47,261 nt of DNA from Chloroflexia bacterium. GTDB taxonomy: Bacteria; Chloroflexota; Chloroflexia; Thermomicrobiales; CFX8. Positions 13,844 to 20,860 of the stretch are shown piece after piece. Made by a program: the position numbers and the translations under genes. The stretch spans positions 1-47,261 of the forward strand of contig JAUIIK010000026.1 in assembly GCA_030431755.1 (NCBI GenBank), given 5' to 3'. The notes under the pieces are model-generated. The model had not been told where the DNA came from and ran no database searches. It saw only the letters and a program-made list of their open reading frames with translations. Positions within the stretch are counted from its first letter, which is position 1, and every line of letters starts with the position of its first letter.

Positions 13844-14584
13844 ATGACCGCGATGACTGAGCAGGAAATGCTGAAGGAACTCGAACAGTTCGATACGCCG
13901 TCGATCACGAACGTGGTCGCGACCTACCCGGCGAACCCGCTCTGTCTGGGGCTCTACAATCCCTGGACGGAGAACTGGTACACCGACGCGTCGATCCGCT
14001 GTATGTATCCGGAGATCGGCCCCCGCGTTGGCTATGCCGTGACCTGTGTCTACAGCGTGCCGGACCCCAACTACAACCGCTTGACCTTCATGGACGTCAT
14101 CGACGCGCTGGCTGCCTCGCCGCAACCCGCGATCCTCGTCTTCGAGCAGAAGTTCCCGCCGGAGATGGCGGCCAAAGCCGGGTTGGCTGGCGAGGTGATG
14201 ACGACGGCGATGCAGGCGGTTGGTTGCATCGGCGCGATCTCGAATGGCCCATCACGCGACATCGACGCCATGCGCCCGATGGGCTTCCAGTACCTGCTCG
14301 GCGGGGTGACGGCGGGCCACGGGGAGATGGCCGTTCAGGCGGTCAATGTCCCGGTCTCAGTCGGCGGCATGGATGTCGCGCCGGGCGAGCTGATCCACAT
14401 GGATGAGAATGGCGCGGTGAAGTTCCCGGCCGACCGCCTGGCCGACGTGCTGACCAACGTCAAAGCCTTGCTCGACGACGAGCAGGTGCGCCTCGACGCC
14501 ATCCGCAACGCCAAGACCGCCGCCGAGGTCCGCGCCGCCTTCGCCGGACAGGCATATGGCGGGGATGAAAGCGAAGCTGAGTAG
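13844..14584 (+). CDS. RraA-like / 4-hydroxy-4-methyl-2-oxoglutarate aldolase family protein
   Basis: This 246-residue protein matches the RraA/HMG-aldolase fold. It has LAGEVMTTAMQAVGCIGAIS, then NGPSRDIDAMRPMGF (the G-x-x-R-D substrate/metal motif), and near the end VAPGELIHMDENGAVKFP. Family members are metal-dependent aldolases/decarboxylases or, in enterobacteria, RNase E regulators; the catalytic Arg-Asp pair is present, so an enzyme is more likely here. It begins 159 bp from a divergent operon. Its last 125 bases are overlapped antisense by the PIN-domain gene. Confidence 0.85.
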   Translation: MTAMTEQEMLKELEQFDTPSITNVVATYPANPLCLGLYNPWTENWYTDASIRCMYPEIGPRVGYAVTCVYSVPDPNYNRLTFMDVIDALAASPQPAILVFEQKFPPEMAAKAGLAGEVMTTAMQAVGCIGAISNGPSRDIDAMRPMGFQYLLGGVTAGHGEMAVQAVNVPVSVGGMDVAPGELIHMDENGAVKFPADRLADVLTNVKALLDDEQVRLDAIRNAKTAAEVRAAFAGQAYGGDESEAE

Positions 14585-15227
14585 CGCATTGCCACTTCCT
14601 GGTTGCGGAGCGTGATAAGTCATCCCGCTTGAGATCCGGGAGCACTACAGCAAGGTCATTGGCAATGGACTCTGCGAGCTGCTGTACAAACATGGGAGCG
14701 TGCAGTTGTAACGCGCGCAACACGGTAGACAGGCTCTGGGACGGCGCTCGTAGGGCCCCGACTTGAGCGTAGATGACGCTGTGAATTCGAACGTGGTCGG
14801 AATGCCACAGTCGGAGCAGGAAGTCGTCGGGGGTGAGGGCCGCAACGCCTTCCGCCGCACAGATTCCGGCTGGAAAGTCGCGGTGATTGAGCGTCACAAT
14901 CACACGCGATTGTGACGCAACGGCAGCAGCAAGTACATGTTCATCGTCTGGATCAGGCAATCCAAACGTTGACGTGCCCAGGTTGCTGACTGACGCATCC
15001 GGAAATGCGGCGTTCATCGAAGCGATTCGGCGGCGTGCTTTGCGAGATGGGATCCCAATCTGAGTGACGAGCGTGCGCTCGGTCTCGGCCAGAATGTGTT
15101 TGCTCCAGCATGGACGAAAGAAGCCGTCGGCGGCGAGTCTCAGCAGAGCGTCGCAGAGGGCCGCCGGTACGAGCACGTTCGCGTCAAGAACCGCGCTTGG
15201 TTGACTCCTTCTGAGCAGTACCGACAT
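14460..15227 (-). CDS. PIN-domain ribonuclease toxin with C-terminal extension
   Basis: The first ~200 residues form a PIN domain: VLDANVLVP with Asp15, a mid-region Glu in ILAETERT, and PDPDDEHVLAAA plus VTLNHRDFP supplying the other acidic metal ligands. It should cleave RNA and be neutralised by the upstream gene, which it overlaps by 44 bases. The last ~45 residues are an Arg-rich tail (VRRRRRGPRRRSWRC) that is simply the antisense of the end of the RraA-like gene. The original stop may have been lost, or the two genes really overlap tail to tail by 125 bp. The tail is unlikely to be part of the PIN fold. Confidence 0.82.
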   Translation of the reverse strand: MSVLLRRSQPSAVLDANVLVPAALCDALLRLAADGFFRPCWSKHILAETERTLVTQIGIPSRKARRRIASMNAAFPDASVSNLGTSTFGLPDPDDEHVLAAAVASQSRVIVTLNHRDFPAGICAAEGVAALTPDDFLLRLWHSDHVRIHSVIYAQVGALRAPSQSLSTVLRALQLHAPMFVQQLAESIANDLAVVLPDLKRDDLSRSATRKWQCATQLRFHPRHMPVRRRRRGPRRRSWRCGWRRGAPARRRARL

Positions 15228-15654
15228 CGTAAAGGCCCATCTCGAATGCGTCGCGGGTCATAGCATCCAACACATTGCGGCGTTCCGCATCGCGACGTTG
15301 CCGATATCTGTCGATCTCGCTCAGTGCAATGCGGCGATGTGTTCCGACATAGCTGTATTCAATCCCTTCGTCGTCGAGGATTGAAATCAGGTATGGTCGT
15401 GAAACTCCGAGGAAATCAGCCGCCTGTTGTGTCGTAAGCGCCGTGTCATACGGAATGATTGAGACCGCGCCGCCCGCACACAGGATGTCTGCGGCCTGTT
15501 GGATGACATCGAGAATCGACTCAGGTATCTCTACGCGTTGGTCGCCGGCCACAAGAGCAGCCTGGCCCGGTTGATCGAGAAGTAGCGATAGAGCGTTGAG
15601 TGTCGCTCGATCGTCCTGGTCGGCTTGAATGGCGCGTATATTTGCTGAAACCAT
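15184..15654 (-). CDS. Excisionase/MerR-type HTH antitoxin for the PIN toxin
   Basis: This 156-residue protein has a helix-turn-helix of the excisionase family in its middle (LTTQQAADFLGVSRPYLISI, then EGIEYSYVGTHRRIALSEID). Its basic/charged C-terminal helix runs into the PIN gene. The arrangement of DNA-binding antitoxin first and toxin second with a 44-base overlap is the usual toxin-antitoxin layout. A perfect 8-bp inverted repeat 76 bp before its start (15730-15756) is a candidate self-regulatory operator. Confidence 0.82.
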   Translation of the reverse strand: MVSANIRAIQADQDDRATLNALSLLLDQPGQAALVAGDQRVEIPESILDVIQQAADILCAGGAVSIIPYDTALTTQQAADFLGVSRPYLISILDDEGIEYSYVGTHRRIALSEIDRYRQRRDAERRNVLDAMTRDAFEMGLYDVGTAQKESTKRGS

Positions 15655-15975: not shown

Positions 15976-16115
15976 GCCGCATACGGGTGCGGTGACCCCG
16001 GCGGAGGTAGGAAACTCACAACGCGATCACCTGCTCTCGCATTGACCCGCGCTCGCTTCATCCGATCTCAGGGTAACGTTGCGGTAGAAACACTCACGTG
16101 ACCGTGGAGGCGCTG

Positions 16116-16751
16116 ATGCAGCCTGGCCAGATTGTGATCCTGAATGGCGCGCCGCGCGCGGGGAAGTCGAGCATCGTTGCTGAGATTCAGGCGCACTTCG
16201 ACGGCGTTTGGATGAATCTGGGCGTCGATGTCTTCATGCAGGGCGTCATCCCCCGACAGTACCTGCCAGGTATCGGGCTACGCCCCGGAGGCGAGGCCCC
16301 GGATCTCGAACCGCTAATTGAGACGCTCTACGCCGCGCTCTACGAGTCGATCGCGGCGCATAGCCGGCTGGGGCTGAACGTCGTCGTGGATGTCGGACAC
16401 CATGACGGATATAGCAAACCGCGCCATATTCTGCCTGATTGCGCCCGGCGCCTGGACGGCTTGCCGGTGCTGTTTGTCGGGGTGCGTTGTCCGATCGAGG
16501 TCATCATGGAGCGTCGCAATGCCGGCCAGCCAGGGCGCGAACACATGTACGCGAGGGGCACCCCGGACGATCCTGTGCCGGAGCCTGTGCGCCGCTGGCA
16601 GCGCGAGGTGCACCGCCACGGAATCTATGACCTGGAGCTTGACACCTCGACCATGACCCCCGCCGAGTGCGCCGCGGTCATACGAGCGCGGCTCGATGCA
16701 GGTTCTCCCTCAACGGCATTCGCGAAACTTGGCGGCGGCCGGGGTGGATGA
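16116..16751 (+). CDS. Chloramphenicol phosphotransferase-like P-loop kinase (copy 1)
   Basis: This 211-residue protein has a P-loop GAPRAGKSSI near the N-terminus, then LGVDVFMQG, where the Asp aligns with the catalytic base of chloramphenicol 3-O-phosphotransferase. It also has NVVVDVGHHDGY and FVGVRCPIEVIMERR, with the VGVRC segment typical of that family. It should transfer phosphate from ATP to a small hydroxylated molecule; chloramphenicol itself is not assured. I chose the ATG at 16116 (GGAGG five bases upstream) over the GTG at 16098. It is followed by a diverged second copy, so an ancient tandem duplication is likely. Confidence 0.83.
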   Translation: MQPGQIVILNGAPRAGKSSIVAEIQAHFDGVWMNLGVDVFMQGVIPRQYLPGIGLRPGGEAPDLEPLIETLYAALYESIAAHSRLGLNVVVDVGHHDGYSKPRHILPDCARRLDGLPVLFVGVRCPIEVIMERRNAGQPGREHMYARGTPDDPVPEPVRRWQREVHRHGIYDLELDTSTMTPAECAAVIRARLDAGSPSTAFAKLGGGRGG

Positions 16752-16784: not shown

Positions 16785-17423
16785 ATGTCTCAAGGAACGC
16801 TGATCTTGCTCAATGGCACCAGCAGCGCCGGAAAGTCGACGGTTGCGAAGGCGTTGCAGGAGATCATGGATGAGCCGTATCTGCATAGCGGCCCCGATCA
16901 TTTCCAACTGGCGCATCCGCCGGGCATGATCACGATCACTGACCGGCCAGATACCGAGGCCGACGGCTGGTTAGCGCTCTACGGCGACAACGGGCTATGC
17001 GAAGTACGGATTGGTCCGCTTGGACGGCGCATGGTCGAGGGCGTCTATCGAGCGATGGCGGCGCTGTCGGACACCGGCTTGAACGTCATTGTCGATAGCG
17101 TCGTTGCCGAGCAGTGGAGCCTCGACCTGGCTGTCGAGGTGCTGCACGCCTATCCCGCCTACTTCGTCTGCCTGGACCTCCCGTTCGCCGTCGCCGAGGC
17201 ACGCGAGGTTGAACGGGGCGACCGCGGGCCGGGCAATGCGCGCTACTTCTACGACCGCGTCTACAGCCTGAGCGACTGCTACGACCTGCGCGTGGACGCA
17301 GCCGCCAACGATCCTGATGAGTGCGCATGGCTGATCAAGCACGCGGTCGAGACAACCGCGCCTGCGGCGCTGCGTCTGTTGCATGAGCAGGATGGCGAAC
17401 CCACGACCGGGCTCAATAGATGA
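16785..17423 (+). CDS. Chloramphenicol phosphotransferase-like P-loop kinase (copy 2)
   Basis: This 212-residue protein has P-loop NGTSSAGKSTVAKAL, HSGPDHFQLA with an Asp in the catalytic-base position, NVIVDSVVAEQWSLDLAVEV, and FAVAEAREVERGDRGPGNAR, which matches the ERGDR signature of chloramphenicol phosphotransferases better than copy 1 does. A small-molecule kinase is expected. It lies 33 bases after copy 1 and 13 bases before a MetE-like gene, so the three probably share a transcript. The two copies share the fold and key residues but little sequence, which suggests different substrates. Confidence 0.85.
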   Translation: MSQGTLILLNGTSSAGKSTVAKALQEIMDEPYLHSGPDHFQLAHPPGMITITDRPDTEADGWLALYGDNGLCEVRIGPLGRRMVEGVYRAMAALSDTGLNVIVDSVVAEQWSLDLAVEVLHAYPAYFVCLDLPFAVAEAREVERGDRGPGNARYFYDRVYSLSDCYDLRVDAAANDPDECAWLIKHAVETTAPAALRLLHEQDGEPTTGLNR

Positions 17424-17436
17424 TGGGTGGACCGAT

Positions 17437-18432
17437 GTGACTGCACATTACCGGGCCGAGACTGTCGGTAGTTTTCTACGGCCTCAATATCTGATGGACG
17501 CACGTGAGCAGGGCGTCGAAGGTGCTGCGCTGCGAGCACTTGAGGATCGCGCCATTCTAGACGTGCTGCGCCTCCAGGAGGATGTTGGTTTGCCGGTGGT
17601 GACGAATGGAGAATTCAGGCGTGGCCATTGGCCGCAACTGATTGTCCAGATCGCGGATGGCGTCGAGCTCATTGATGGTTTCCCTGTACCCGTAGCACCG
17701 ATCCGACAAAAAGCGAGCGTCGTTGACACTGAGTTTCGGATTTTGGCTGACAACACCGATCTCCCGATCAAGATCACGTTGCCGCAGCCAAGCGCGCTCG
17801 GGATGCTCTGGAACGAGAAGGACTCAGGCGCCGCGTATGCAACGCGTGAAGCGTACATAGATGACGTCACGTCGTTGTTGAATACCGAAGCCAGGGCATT
17901 GGTGGCGGCAGGCGTCGCATATATCCAACTTGATGCCCCGCAGTTTACGGTCAATCCGCTCCATGAGCATCCGGCAATGCTCGAGGCGGACCGGCCTGTC
18001 TTCGATGGCGTGGGAGGTGCAACAACTGCCGTGCATCTCTGCCGGGGAAACACCCGTCGGTCGCAGGACGATCCAGCATCGCCATATGACCCGTATGCCG
18101 CTGATGTCTTTGGCGGCTTTCCAGTTGACCGACTGCTACTGGAGTATGACGACTATCAGGCCGGAGACTTCACGGCACTGCGGCATGTGCCGGAGGATGT
18201 CACAGTGGTGCTTGGATTGGTGACCACCAAATGGCCGGAGTTGGAAGATGAAGACGATTTGGTGCGACGAATCAACCAGGCTGCAGAGTACGTTCCACTC
18301 GACAGGTTGGCCCTCTCGCCGCAGTGTGGATTCTCGTCACGTTCGACGATCCAGAACGTAACACCAGAAGTCCAGCGTCGGAAGTTGGAACTGGTTGTCA
18401 GGGTTGCTGAGCGAGTCTGGGGGTCAGTCTAA
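17437..18432 (+). CDS. MetE-like (cobalamin-independent methionine synthase C-terminal family) protein
   Basis: This protein of about 331 residues matches the C-terminal catalytic half of MetE. It has AETVGSFLRP at the start, VVTNGEFRRGHWP, YIQLDAPQF, AVHLCRGN with His and Cys as zinc ligands, and LALSPQCGFSSR with the third ligand Cys. Stand-alone proteins of this length are often not true methionine synthases but use other thiol or methyl donors. I chose the GTG at 17437, 13 bases after the kinase stop and preceded by GGGTGG; the longer frame from 17383 overlaps that gene. It is the last gene of the kinase operon. Confidence 0.85.
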   Translation: MTAHYRAETVGSFLRPQYLMDAREQGVEGAALRALEDRAILDVLRLQEDVGLPVVTNGEFRRGHWPQLIVQIADGVELIDGFPVPVAPIRQKASVVDTEFRILADNTDLPIKITLPQPSALGMLWNEKDSGAAYATREAYIDDVTSLLNTEARALVAAGVAYIQLDAPQFTVNPLHEHPAMLEADRPVFDGVGGATTAVHLCRGNTRRSQDDPASPYDPYAADVFGGFPVDRLLLEYDDYQAGDFTALRHVPEDVTVVLGLVTTKWPELEDEDDLVRRINQAAEYVPLDRLALSPQCGFSSRSTIQNVTPEVQRRKLELVVRVAERVWGSV

Positions 18433-18451
18433 CGATTTCGGAGCTTAACGA

Positions 18452-18489
18452 AACGAGCCGCGTCGTGGCATTGAGTGACGCGGCTCGTT
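18452..18489. terminator. Strong hairpin between convergent genes, probable terminator
   Basis: AACGAGCCGCGTC (18452-18464) and GACGCGGCTCGTT (18477-18489) form a perfect 13-bp stem with a 12-base loop. On the - strand the stem is followed by TTTCGTT and lies ten bases after the last micro-gene. It can serve that array and perhaps also the + strand operon ending at 18432. Confidence 0.75.
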
Positions 18490-18498
18490 AGGGGGCGG

Positions 18499-18609
18499 TT
18501 AGGGCTGGCGGGCGCGGCGAATGCGGAGGGCGTGCTTCCGGGAACCGGCCCGCTGGCGGAGCCCCGCCCGGGGGTTCAGTAGCTCGATGGCGTACATCTG
18601 ATCGAGCAT
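18499..18609 (-). CDS. Micro-gene 5 of the array, 36-aa basic peptide
   Basis: The ATG at 18609 is preceded by GAAAGGAAAG and gives 36 residues beginning MLDQMYAIELLNPRAG and ending in a basic tail (HALRIRRARQP), with nine Arg/Lys. The MLD start is shared with micro-gene 4 and resembles MLE in micro-gene 1. The N-terminal third could form an amphipathic helix; the tail is highly positive. It is the last of the array, ten bases before a strong hairpin. Function is unknown. Confidence 0.68.
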   Translation of the reverse strand: MLDQMYAIELLNPRAGLRQRAGSRKHALRIRRARQP

Positions 18610-18654
18610 CGGGCTTTCCTTTCGCGGTGGTCGTCATTGTGCTGACCCCGGCGA

Positions 18655-18759
18655 CTAGCGCGTGTGCACGCGTGGACGGTGGCGTGTGCGCCGTGACGTG
18701 CGTAGCTGCTCCTGTCGCTGCTTGGCCATGACTTCCGCCAGGTAGAGTGAATCGAGCAT
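18655..18759 (-). CDS. Micro-gene 4 of the array, 34-aa basic peptide
   Basis: The ATG at 18759 has AAAGGAG eight bases upstream. The 34 residues start MLDSLYLAEVMAKQRQEQ and end with TRHRPRVHTR, with nine Arg/Lys. The start is like that of micro-gene 5 (MLD, then a hydrophobic/aromatic helix), with the same switch to an Arg-rich tail. A longer overlapping frame on this strand exists in another phase but lacks its own ribosome binding site. Function is unknown. Confidence 0.7.
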   Translation of the reverse strand: MLDSLYLAEVMAKQRQEQLRTSRRTRHRPRVHTR

Positions 18760-18885
18760 TGTGCTCGCTCCTTTCCATTGTTCTGCGGCGGGACCCCATG
18801 CCCCGCGTGCGGCGCAGAATCAATAAGTATATCGAATTTTGCCTCGTTTGCATAGTCAAATGGTCATATCGCGATAAGACGAACG
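18760..18885 (-). other. AT-rich spacer inside the micro-gene array
   Basis: This 126-bp gap between micro-genes 3 and 4 is AT-rich compared with its surroundings. On the - strand it carries TTGACT and, 22 bases later, TATACT, a poorly spaced promoter-like pair. It also has a hairpin with perfect arms TTCTGCG and CGCAGAA (around 18779-18819). It may hold a second weak promoter or a processing site that splits the array into genes 1-3 and 4-5. Confidence 0.35.
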
Positions 18886-19011
18886 TTAGCGTTCCTTGAT
18901 CCCCTGGCTAGCGGCGCCTCGGCGGCTGAGAAAGCGCGGGCGGGACTGGCCCGGGCGGCGCGTGTCAGTGTCGCGGGCGAGCAATGTGGCGAGATCTGGA
19001 TGCATCATCAT
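18886..19011 (-). CDS. Micro-gene 3 of the array, up to 41-aa basic peptide
   Basis: Three consecutive ATG codons (19011, 19008, 19005) follow AGGAAGG (19017-19023), so the product is 39-41 residues. After the initial Mets it reads MHPDLATLLARD, matching MHPDLAQLIAAD of micro-gene 2, then becomes Arg/Pro/Ser-rich (RRPGQSRPRFLSRRG). The shared N-terminus with its own ribosome binding site argues for a true gene and for duplication within the array. Function is unknown. Confidence 0.7.
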   Translation of the reverse strand: MMMHPDLATLLARDTDTRRPGQSRPRFLSRRGAASQGIKER

Positions 19012-19056
19012 GGGTTCCTTCCTGAGGGGCTGCGGTTTCCGGCGGAGACGCGGGAT

Positions 19057-19152
19057 CTAGCCGCGGCGCTTGCGAATGATCCGGGTCCGAGTACGGGCGC
19101 GTTCTTCACGGAGACGGTCGGCGGCGATCAGCTGTGCGAGGTCCGGGTGCAT
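19057..19152 (-). CDS. Micro-gene 2 of the array, 31-aa basic peptide
   Basis: The ATG at 19152 has AGGAAGG eight bases upstream. The 31 residues begin MHPDLAQLIAADRLREERAR and end IIRKRRG, with ten Arg/Lys. The N-terminus shares MHPDLA-x-L-x-A-x-D with micro-gene 3. A 96-residue frame that includes this one runs through micro-gene 1 in another phase, but it has no supporting start site and is less likely. Function is unknown. Confidence 0.72.
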   Translation of the reverse strand: MHPDLAQLIAADRLREERARTRTRIIRKRRG

Positions 19153-19196
19153 GTCAGGTTCCTTCCTGCTCAATCTATAGACGCGAGTGGCGGCTG

Positions 19197-19271
19197 TTAG
19201 GACGCGCGGCCGCGGCGGGCCGGGCGCTTCATCTTCGCGACGTAATCGCTGATGATTTGATACTCCAGCAT
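19197..19271 (-). CDS. Micro-gene 1 of the array, 24-aa basic peptide
   Basis: This is the promoter-proximal member. The ATG at 19271 has AGGAAGG seven bases upstream and encodes 24 residues, MLEYQIISDYVAKMK followed by the basic tail RPARRGRAS. It lies about 50 bases after the predicted transcription start of a near-consensus promoter. Like its neighbours it pairs a hydrophobic/acidic head with an Arg-rich tail. It could also act as a leader peptide for the others, but its shared design suggests a family member. Function is unknown. Confidence 0.7.
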   Translation of the reverse strand: MLEYQIISDYVAKMKRPARRGRAS

Positions 19272-19325
19272 CTCGAAACCTTCCTGTTAAGTGCGAGTCA
19301 GTCCGTGTTTGTGACTGATAACTAG

Positions 19326-19354
19326 ATAATACATGTCTAATTCTCATTTGTCAA
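19326..19354 (-). promoter_or_regulatory. Near-consensus sigma-70-type promoter for the micro-gene array
   Basis: On the - strand TTGACA (19354-19349) and TATTAT (19331-19326) are separated by exactly 17 bp, which is 11 of 12 consensus positions. The element lies in an AT-rich island (about 19285-19400) in otherwise GC-rich DNA and points into micro-gene 1. The rest of 19355-19556 holds no gene I can support. Confidence 0.8.
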
Positions 19355-19556
19355 GCTTCATTTTAGTATCTCTTAGCAATCGAATCGAATTTCTTGAAGA
19401 ATCGCGGTTTCTGGTGGCCTTTGGGGTGTTTCCGCGACCGCGTTGTCGGGCGGCGATGGACGAGCCCCCTGGCCTGGAGGTGGATACGGCCAGCGGCGAG
19501 TTGACGAGAGTGGTAGCCAGCAGGCTGGACGGTTTGGATCTATGCGCCAATGAAAA

Positions 19557-19582
19557 GAGCGGCTCCCGTATGAGAGCCGCTC
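19557..19582 (-). terminator. Intrinsic terminator after the sucB gene
   Basis: GAGCGGCTC (19557-19565) and GAGCCGCTC (19574-19582) form a perfect 9-bp stem. Read on the - strand it is followed by TTTT, and it lies 28 bases after the sucB stop. Confidence 0.8.
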
Positions 19583-19609
19583 GGTGTTCGCGTGGTTTGG
19601 AGTCTGGCG

Positions 19610-20860
19610 TTAGCCCTCGAGGAGCATCGTCTCCGGGTCTTCGAGGAGCTCCTTGACGCGCACGAGGAACTGCACGGCCCCCTGGCCGTCAACGACCCGG
19701 TGGTCATAGGAGAGGGCAATGTACATCATCGGCCGGACGACGACCGCGCCATCAACAACCATCGGCCGCTCCTCGATCTTGTGCATGCCGAGGATGCCGA
19801 CCTGGGGCGTGTTGAGGATCGGCGTCGACAGGAGCGAGCCGTAGACGCCGCCGTTGGTGATCGTGAAGGTGCCGCCCATCAGCTCGGAGATGTCGAGGGT
19901 GCGGTCGCGGACCTTGCCGGCCAGCTCGCGAATCTCGCTCTCGATCTCCGCGAAGCTCTTGCGGTCGGCGTCCCGGACGACCGGGACGACGAGCCCCTCT
20001 TCCGCGCCGACGGCGATGCCGATGTCGTAGTAGCTCTTCAGGATCAATTCGTCGCCGTCGAGCTCGGCGTTGACCTCGGGGTGGGACTTCAAGCCGCCGA
20101 CAACGGCCTTCGTGAAGAAGGACATATAGCCGAGCCGGACGCCGTGCCGATCCTCGAAGCTATCGCGCCGGCGCGCCCGGATGTCCATTACTGCGGTCAT
20201 GTCGACCTCGTTGAAGGTTGTGAGCATCGCCGCCGTCTGCTGGGCTTCGACAAGCCGGCGGGCGATGGTCTGGCGGCGGCGGGAGAGCCGGACGCGCTCC
20301 TCGCGGTCGTCGCCACGGCCGTTCGGGCCGATCTCGGCCGGCGCGACGGGCGTCGCTGGCGCTTGCGCTGCCTGAGTCGCGGCTGCTGGTTGCGCGGTCG
20401 GTGGCTGGTATTGCAGGACGTCCTGCGGCAGCACGCGGCCGCCGGGGCCGGTCCCGCTGACGCTGCTCAGGTCGATTGAGCGTTCGACGGCCAGCCGGCG
20501 CGCTTCCGGCCCGGCACGGTGGCGGCCGGCCGCGACCGGTTCCGGCTCTGCTTCGGCAGCCTCGACTTCCGGTTCCTCAGCGGCTTCCACAGTTTCTTCC
20601 CCAGCCGGAGCCTCGGCGGTCGCGCCTTCGAGGATCATTCCAAGCAGTTCACCGACCTCGACGTTGTCGCCCTCTTCGCGGCTGATGGATTCGAGGACGC
20701 CGGCCTGCTCGGCCGGGATCTCGACGTTGACCTTATCGGTCTCCAATTCGACGACCGGTTCGTTGCGGTCGACCGCCTCGCCCGGCTTCTTGAGCCACTG
20801 GACAATGGTCGCATCGACGATCGATTCGCCGAGCGACGGCACCCTGATTTCTATCGACAT
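19610..20860 (-). CDS. sucB: Dihydrolipoyllysine succinyltransferase, E2 of 2-oxoglutarate dehydrogenase
   Basis: This 416-residue E2 enzyme has an N-terminal lipoyl domain with Lys43 in [11 protein letters not shown], an Ala/Glu/Pro linker, and a peripheral-subunit-binding domain at ~117-151 ([20 protein letters not shown]). The C-terminal acyltransferase domain carries the catalytic DHRVVDG at ~386-392. It transfers the succinyl group from lipoamide to CoA in the TCA cycle. The upstream E1 gene points to 2-oxoglutarate rather than pyruvate as substrate. The E3 subunit gene is not in this window. A good terminator follows. Confidence 0.95.

Follow-up and report, generated by a model that had tools for sequence, protein, structure and literature searches.

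Runs of micro-genes for small arginine-rich proteins at three loci in one bacterial family

Small Arg-rich proteins of fewer than ~70 residues are known from the DUF1127 family, exemplified by the small DUF1127 proteins of Agrobacterium, YjiS and CcaF1 of Rhodobacter, which occur as several paralogues per genome and are predicted to be helical. DUF1127 proteins contain 14% Arg on average; their binding partner is RNA in Rhodobacter, whereas in Agrobacterium and E. coli it is the sensor kinase PhoR (PMC12501420). One DUF1127 gene is preceded by an attenuator under uORF control (PMC12218461). Outside bacteriocins, it is unusual for a single stand-alone unit to yield a set of related small proteins. 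Leaderless bacteriocins such as aureocin A70 (four peptides of 30-31 residues) and garvicin KS (three of 32-34 residues) are hydrophobic, with GRAVY values of about +0.4 to +0.7 (PMC6131525). Their three or four related cationic peptides of ~30-34 residues have no leader and are encoded by tandem genes, with transporter and immunity genes nearby. A third group, the leader-peptide attenuators and uORFs, is marked by ORFs of very small size, strong ribosome-binding sites and hairpins close by. Actinobacteria may carry short Arg-rich peptides like those described here. Gene finders routinely miss genes this short.

The window analysed here is a stretch of 47,261 nucleotides and spans the full length of contig C207 in a draft genome of 5.1 Mb. 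On its minus strand, between the 2-oxoacid dehydrogenase acyltransferase gene sucB (19610-20860) and a convergent Meth_synt_2 gene (17383-18432), lies an array of five micro-ORFs (Table 1), with sucA/sucB directly upstream and the hairpin at its end facing Meth_synt_2. A sequence-only reading of this DNA had proposed five same-strand micro-genes for peptides of 24-41 residues, each with its own ribosome-binding site. All five are present on that strand, with a site (AGGAAGG, AAAGGAG or AAAGGAA) 5-8 bases before the ATG in every gene; the third of the successive start codons of g3 lies 11 bases from the site and yields a 39-residue product beginning MHPDL, and the first yields 41 residues. The motif MHPDLA-x-L-x-A-x-D that the same reading attributed to both g2 and g3 is correct, and the near-consensus promoter and closing 13-bp hairpin that it described are found ahead of g1 and after g5, respectively.

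Table 1. Features of the micro-gene array in the window
Feature	Position	Strand	Description
Promoter-like site	19326..19354	-	TTGACA-17-TATTAT; 11/12 consensus matches
Micro-gene 1 (g1)	19197..19271	-	MLEYQIISDYVAKMKRPARRGRAS, 24 aa; AGGAAGG 7 bases before ATG
Micro-gene 2 (g2)	19057..19152	-	MHPDLAQLIAADRLREERARTRTRIIRKRRG, 31 aa; AGGAAGG 8 bases before ATG
Micro-gene 3 (g3)	18886..19011	-	(MM)MHPDLATLLARDTDTRRPGQSRPRFLSRRGAASQGIKER, 39-41 aa; AGGAAGG upstream of three consecutive ATG codons
Spacer hairpin, g3-g4	18781..18819	-	Predicted fold inside the 126-base spacer
Micro-gene 4 (g4)	18655..18759	-	MLDSLYLAEVMAKQRQEQLRTSRRTRHRPRVHTR, 34 aa; AAAGGAG 8 bases before ATG
Micro-gene 5 (g5)	18499..18609	-	MLDQMYAIELLNPRAGLRQRAGSRKHALRIRRARQP, 36 aa; AAAGGAA 6 bases before ATG
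13-bp stem-loop at array end	18452..18489	-	z = -4.5; 0/200 shuffles as stable

The promoter-like site is the sole match of its kind within positions 17800-20200, where 0.6 would be expected. The stem-loop at the array end is probably a terminator; it is followed by TTTCGTT, a weak T-run, and a terminator scan did not accept it. We infer that one transcript spans all five genes. A function for the hairpin in the g3-g4 spacer is doubtful because the spacer as a whole does not stand out in fold stability (z = -1.3). The same AT-rich spacer (18760-18885, minus strand) contains TTGACT and TATACT 22 bases apart, a pair that the consensus promoter scan did not pick up and that is possibly a second, non-optimal promoter; the spacer could hold a second start site.

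Several independent lines of evidence show that the run of five micro-genes is real. The region contains five micro-ORFs of 22-45 aa with a ribosome-binding site and an ATG in one run, whereas 3,000 dinucleotide shuffles averaged 0.07 and none exceeded 2, and the whole window has only 13 such micro-ORFs on both strands, five of them forming the array. When 0.89 Mb of the same genome was scanned without a profile, runs of three or more were limited to the window array and an array on contig C28, a contig included in the scan because a profile had already found its array; about 0.9 of the 5.1 Mb was thus scanned directly and the remainder by profile only. Synonymous codon choice is coding-like in all five frames, which follow host codon preferences: 0.7-12.5% of 281 control ORFs similar in length score as high in a test trained on 31 long ORFs (P = 0.014 for g1, 0.011 for g2 and 0.039 for g3). 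The acidic head and basic tail described in the sequence-only reading recur in all five window peptides, whose first 12 residues have a net charge of -1 to -2 and whose remainder has one of +6 to +9; by residue shuffling the acidic head is non-random peptide by peptide (P = 0.003-0.11; product ~3e-10).

Two further arrays came to light through profile searches. Profile A1, built from the five window peptides and run against 61 genomes of the order, matched a micro-ORF in G002, a member of another genus of the family (G002:C207:2982-2875; E = 4.9e-8). Its best match outside the window in the genome that carries the window was C28:2956-3042 (E = 0.12), the gene that closes the C28 array, which reached E = 4e-14 once included in the model. 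Both matches proved on inspection to be micro-ORFs inside runs of similar micro-ORFs. The second array, on contig C28 of the same genome, has three genes (MMLTNDYIAGVEAQARRERLQNMRRSVSIRRRKR, MMQQLYVHEEIARQRREEWISRSHAGRGRPRRRR and MLDQMYAIEMVSNEAGRRSTGRKNPLRIRTR), and the third, in G002, has two (MLQFYVLDAIKTRLEEAHKDERDRRTITGRRLRTMSVRYRLRR, with a GTG start, and MLDQLYVLEFMAAERQERLRAAGRKRALRIRNRHQR); together the three loci encode ten peptides (five in the window, three on C28 and two in G002). Hairpins terminate all three arrays, those of C28 and G002 being GC-rich with T-runs, and in all three the last, hairpin-adjacent gene is of the MLDQ[ML]Y type (pair z 8.8-11.6). The representative of this terminal type in the window is g5, with C28_3 (z = 11.3) and G2_2 (z = 8.8) as homologues; g4 also belongs to the family (pair z 8.9 with G2_2, 6.9 with C28_1). 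In the G002 array a very stable long hairpin lies just before the first micro-gene (L115:3150-3230, minus strand; z = -5.5) and is a possible leader control element. The leader of the C28 array (L116:2385-2590, plus strand), between a divergent FAD oxidoreductase gene and the first micro-gene, carries inverted repeats, e.g. GGGTGTAA...TTACACCC.

Selection was assessed on nucleotide alignments made without frame information and compared with column permutation. Amino-acid similarity was frame-specific in six of eight pairs (P = 0.001-0.035), which are not mutually independent: g5/C28_3 (0.035), g5/G2_2 (0.005), C28_3/G2_2 (0.002), g4/G2_2 (0.0014), g4/C28_1 (0.002) and C28_2/G2_2 (0.004); g4/C28_2 (P = 0.074) and g2/g3 (P = 0.12) fell below significance. 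Substitutions between loci keep the reading frame in the six pairs. The sequence-only view of the frames as genuine small genes is supported: there is conservation across loci and genera, substitutions are frame-specific and codon use is biased. g4 and g5 are confirmed as real tandem micro-genes by their conservation, and g1-g3 are well supported as such by codon use, ribosome-binding sites and context.

The origin of the array by internal duplication, also suggested at the outset, holds in part. It applies to g2 and g3, which are paralogues (z = 6.7), and is not supported as descent of all five genes from a single ancestor: a second profile (A2), built from g4, g5 and the five C28 and G002 peptides without g1-g3, does not detect g1, g2 or g3. 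Kinship of these three to g4 and g5 is therefore not shown by an independent profile, and the links of g1 are weak (z = 4.4 to C28_1 and 3.1 to g4). The comparison also supports the copying of whole arrays to other loci: C28_3 is nearer to g5 than g4 is.

As far as searched, the family is restricted to one bacterial family. Across the order (61 genomes), the class (158) and the phylum (400), A2 found nothing convincing beyond its own seven members; a profile of all ten peptides added nothing in the five genomes of the bacterial family, no homologue turned up in three other genomes belonging to it, and tblastn searches with g2 against phages, g4 against plasmids and G2_2 against both returned nothing. 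Two weak profile matches were rejected as chance, one (L117) lying inside a 165-aa frame and the other (L145) containing two stops. A DNA similarity search with the whole array found no match in 40 relatives, and synteny at sucB in relatives revealed no micro-gene run and no array. A pattern combining a ribosome-binding site with MHP[DE][LF] matched 27 other genomes of the order and of 400 phylum genomes, with no such array among them. Matches to a ribosome-binding site followed by MHPDL..L in GTDB r220 (19) and IMG/VR (3) were chance matches or ordinary proteins. The MHPDL start, which had been offered as a marker for relatives, is not useful, as in none of the relatives searched does such a micro-gene begin that way. 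By DNA and MHPDL-pattern searches alone the earlier idea would look refuted; its own refuting condition, a lack of conservation in relatives, was escaped only narrowly, through the profile that brought out the C28 and G002 arrays.

The array peptides have 24-43 residues, 17-30% Arg, a pI of 10.4-12 and an overall net charge of +4 to +7, which in all ten divides into a head of -2 to 0 and a tail of +6 to +9; they are strongly hydrophilic (GRAVY -0.7 to -1.8), and helical hydrophobic moments are low in most. An AlphaFold2 model of g5, which rests on ten short sequences, has helices at residues 2-11 and 13-34 with a moderate pLDDT of 75. The five window peptides matched no family in Pfam or NCBIfam at E <= 10, DUF1127 included, and seven family members searched against Pfam gave only DUF6087 (0.07) and AbbA (0.23), neither convincing. 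The peptides had no convincing match in PHROG or PDB and none to RNA- or DNA-binding families, and Rfam returned only a sub-threshold match to P37 (E 0.31; 20.8 of 50 bits). Judged by model search, the array peptides are not DUF1127 members; they resemble that family in size, Arg content, paralogy and predicted helicity, differing from it in that they match no Pfam family, have a distinct acidic/hydrophobic head and are encoded in tandem, by two to five genes, as stand-alone units. DUF1127 is their best analogy.

The reading that we favour, tentatively and with slightly less than even confidence, is that these stand-alone arrays encode small helical Arg-rich proteins whose tails bind RNA or acidic protein. 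Each array would be an independent transcription unit of paralogous micro-genes, and arrays would move or duplicate as units. Every gene, served by a ribosome-binding site of its own, would give a short protein, predicted to be helical, that joins an Arg-rich tail to a mildly acidic, hydrophobic head of the M-L-D-x-[LM]-Y-x-x-E type. The most likely target of the tail would be either an acidic protein or RNA, whether ribosomal or messenger, and the head would provide specificity by touching a partner or a fellow member of the family. The cell would in this way produce a number of related small regulators simultaneously, much as it does with Arg-rich DUF1127 proteins. Helicity is suggested here by the structural model, and binding to RNA or acidic proteins by analogy. 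The earlier conjecture of peptides working together and binding nucleic acid, ribosomes or membranes is compatible with the data; their low hydrophobicity argues against membranes. A more far-reaching version, which strikes us as possible though rather doubtful, is that the arrays represent an undescribed multi-copy cassette family (promoter, two to five bipolar paralogues, terminator) spread as units in one bacterial family, whose members assemble head to tail or serve as an adaptor set for RNA or ribosomes. The ten peptides at three loci provide a test set for the roles of small Arg-rich bacterial proteins, and the arrays one for the origin and spread of micro-gene arrays.

The cyanobacterial glutamine synthetase inactivating factors are enzyme modulators that act by protein-protein contact. 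Modulation of a specific enzyme or sensor by such contact, with no nucleic acid role, is an unlikely explanation for the present peptides that draws on the position of two arrays near 2-oxoacid dehydrogenase genes: sucA/sucB at the window array and, further off from the C28 array, an E1 alpha-like ORF identified by eye only, beyond its FAD oxidoreductase gene and an unassigned ORF. Small Arg-rich proteins that bind kinases are also known, as in the case of DUF1127 and PhoR (PMC12501420). The G002 array, however, has other neighbours (a GYD-domain gene and a short unassigned ORF, with an ORF resembling cytochrome b, named by eye only, at a greater distance), and the sucB neighbourhood of other relatives is devoid of an array; the dehydrogenase link may be coincidence.

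The structured leader of G002, the array-end hairpins, the polybasic C-termini and the attenuator precedent at a DUF1127 gene (PMC12218461) are what one might expect of regulatory short ORFs or a dual-function RNA, in which the stability or transcription of the RNA is set by ribosomes moving over the micro-ORFs or stalling on their Arg-rich ends, with the peptides as such of little importance. We consider this quite improbable. The arrays share very short ORFs, strong ribosome-binding sites and nearby hairpins with leader-peptide attenuators and uORFs, but they have no controlled downstream gene, the window array ending in a hairpin that faces a convergent gene; they encode several paralogous peptides with selection acting on amino acids in frame, and Rfam gave no significant match. 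Neighbours differ at the three loci, and the arrays are therefore not the leader of one gene.

It is very unlikely that the peptides are a multi-peptide leaderless bacteriocin or cationic antimicrobial set, active without processing. Size, tandem genes, paralogy, lack of a leader, net charge and predicted helix are alike (PMC6131525), whereas the array peptides are hydrophilic and Arg-rich instead of hydrophobic and mostly have low helical hydrophobic moments. No transporter or immunity gene adjoins an array at any of the three loci, the C28 and G002 contigs being only 4 kb long. Finally, we give almost no credence to chance or decaying ORFs without function, a reading that accords with the very narrow distribution and with g1-g3 having no relatives outside the window array, but that is opposed by the ORF run, the ribosome-binding sites, the codon bias and the frame-specific conservation between two genera, and that for g4 and g5 is already largely refuted.

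Elsewhere in the window, two adjacent genes for chloramphenicol phosphotransferase-like (PF07931) kinases lie on the plus strand (16098-16751 and 16785-17423), the second of them also weakly zeta-toxin-like. On the minus strand (14460-15227 and 15184-15654), a PIN_3-domain gene directly follows an HTH_17 (excisionase-type) gene, the pair being arranged like a toxin-antitoxin pair.
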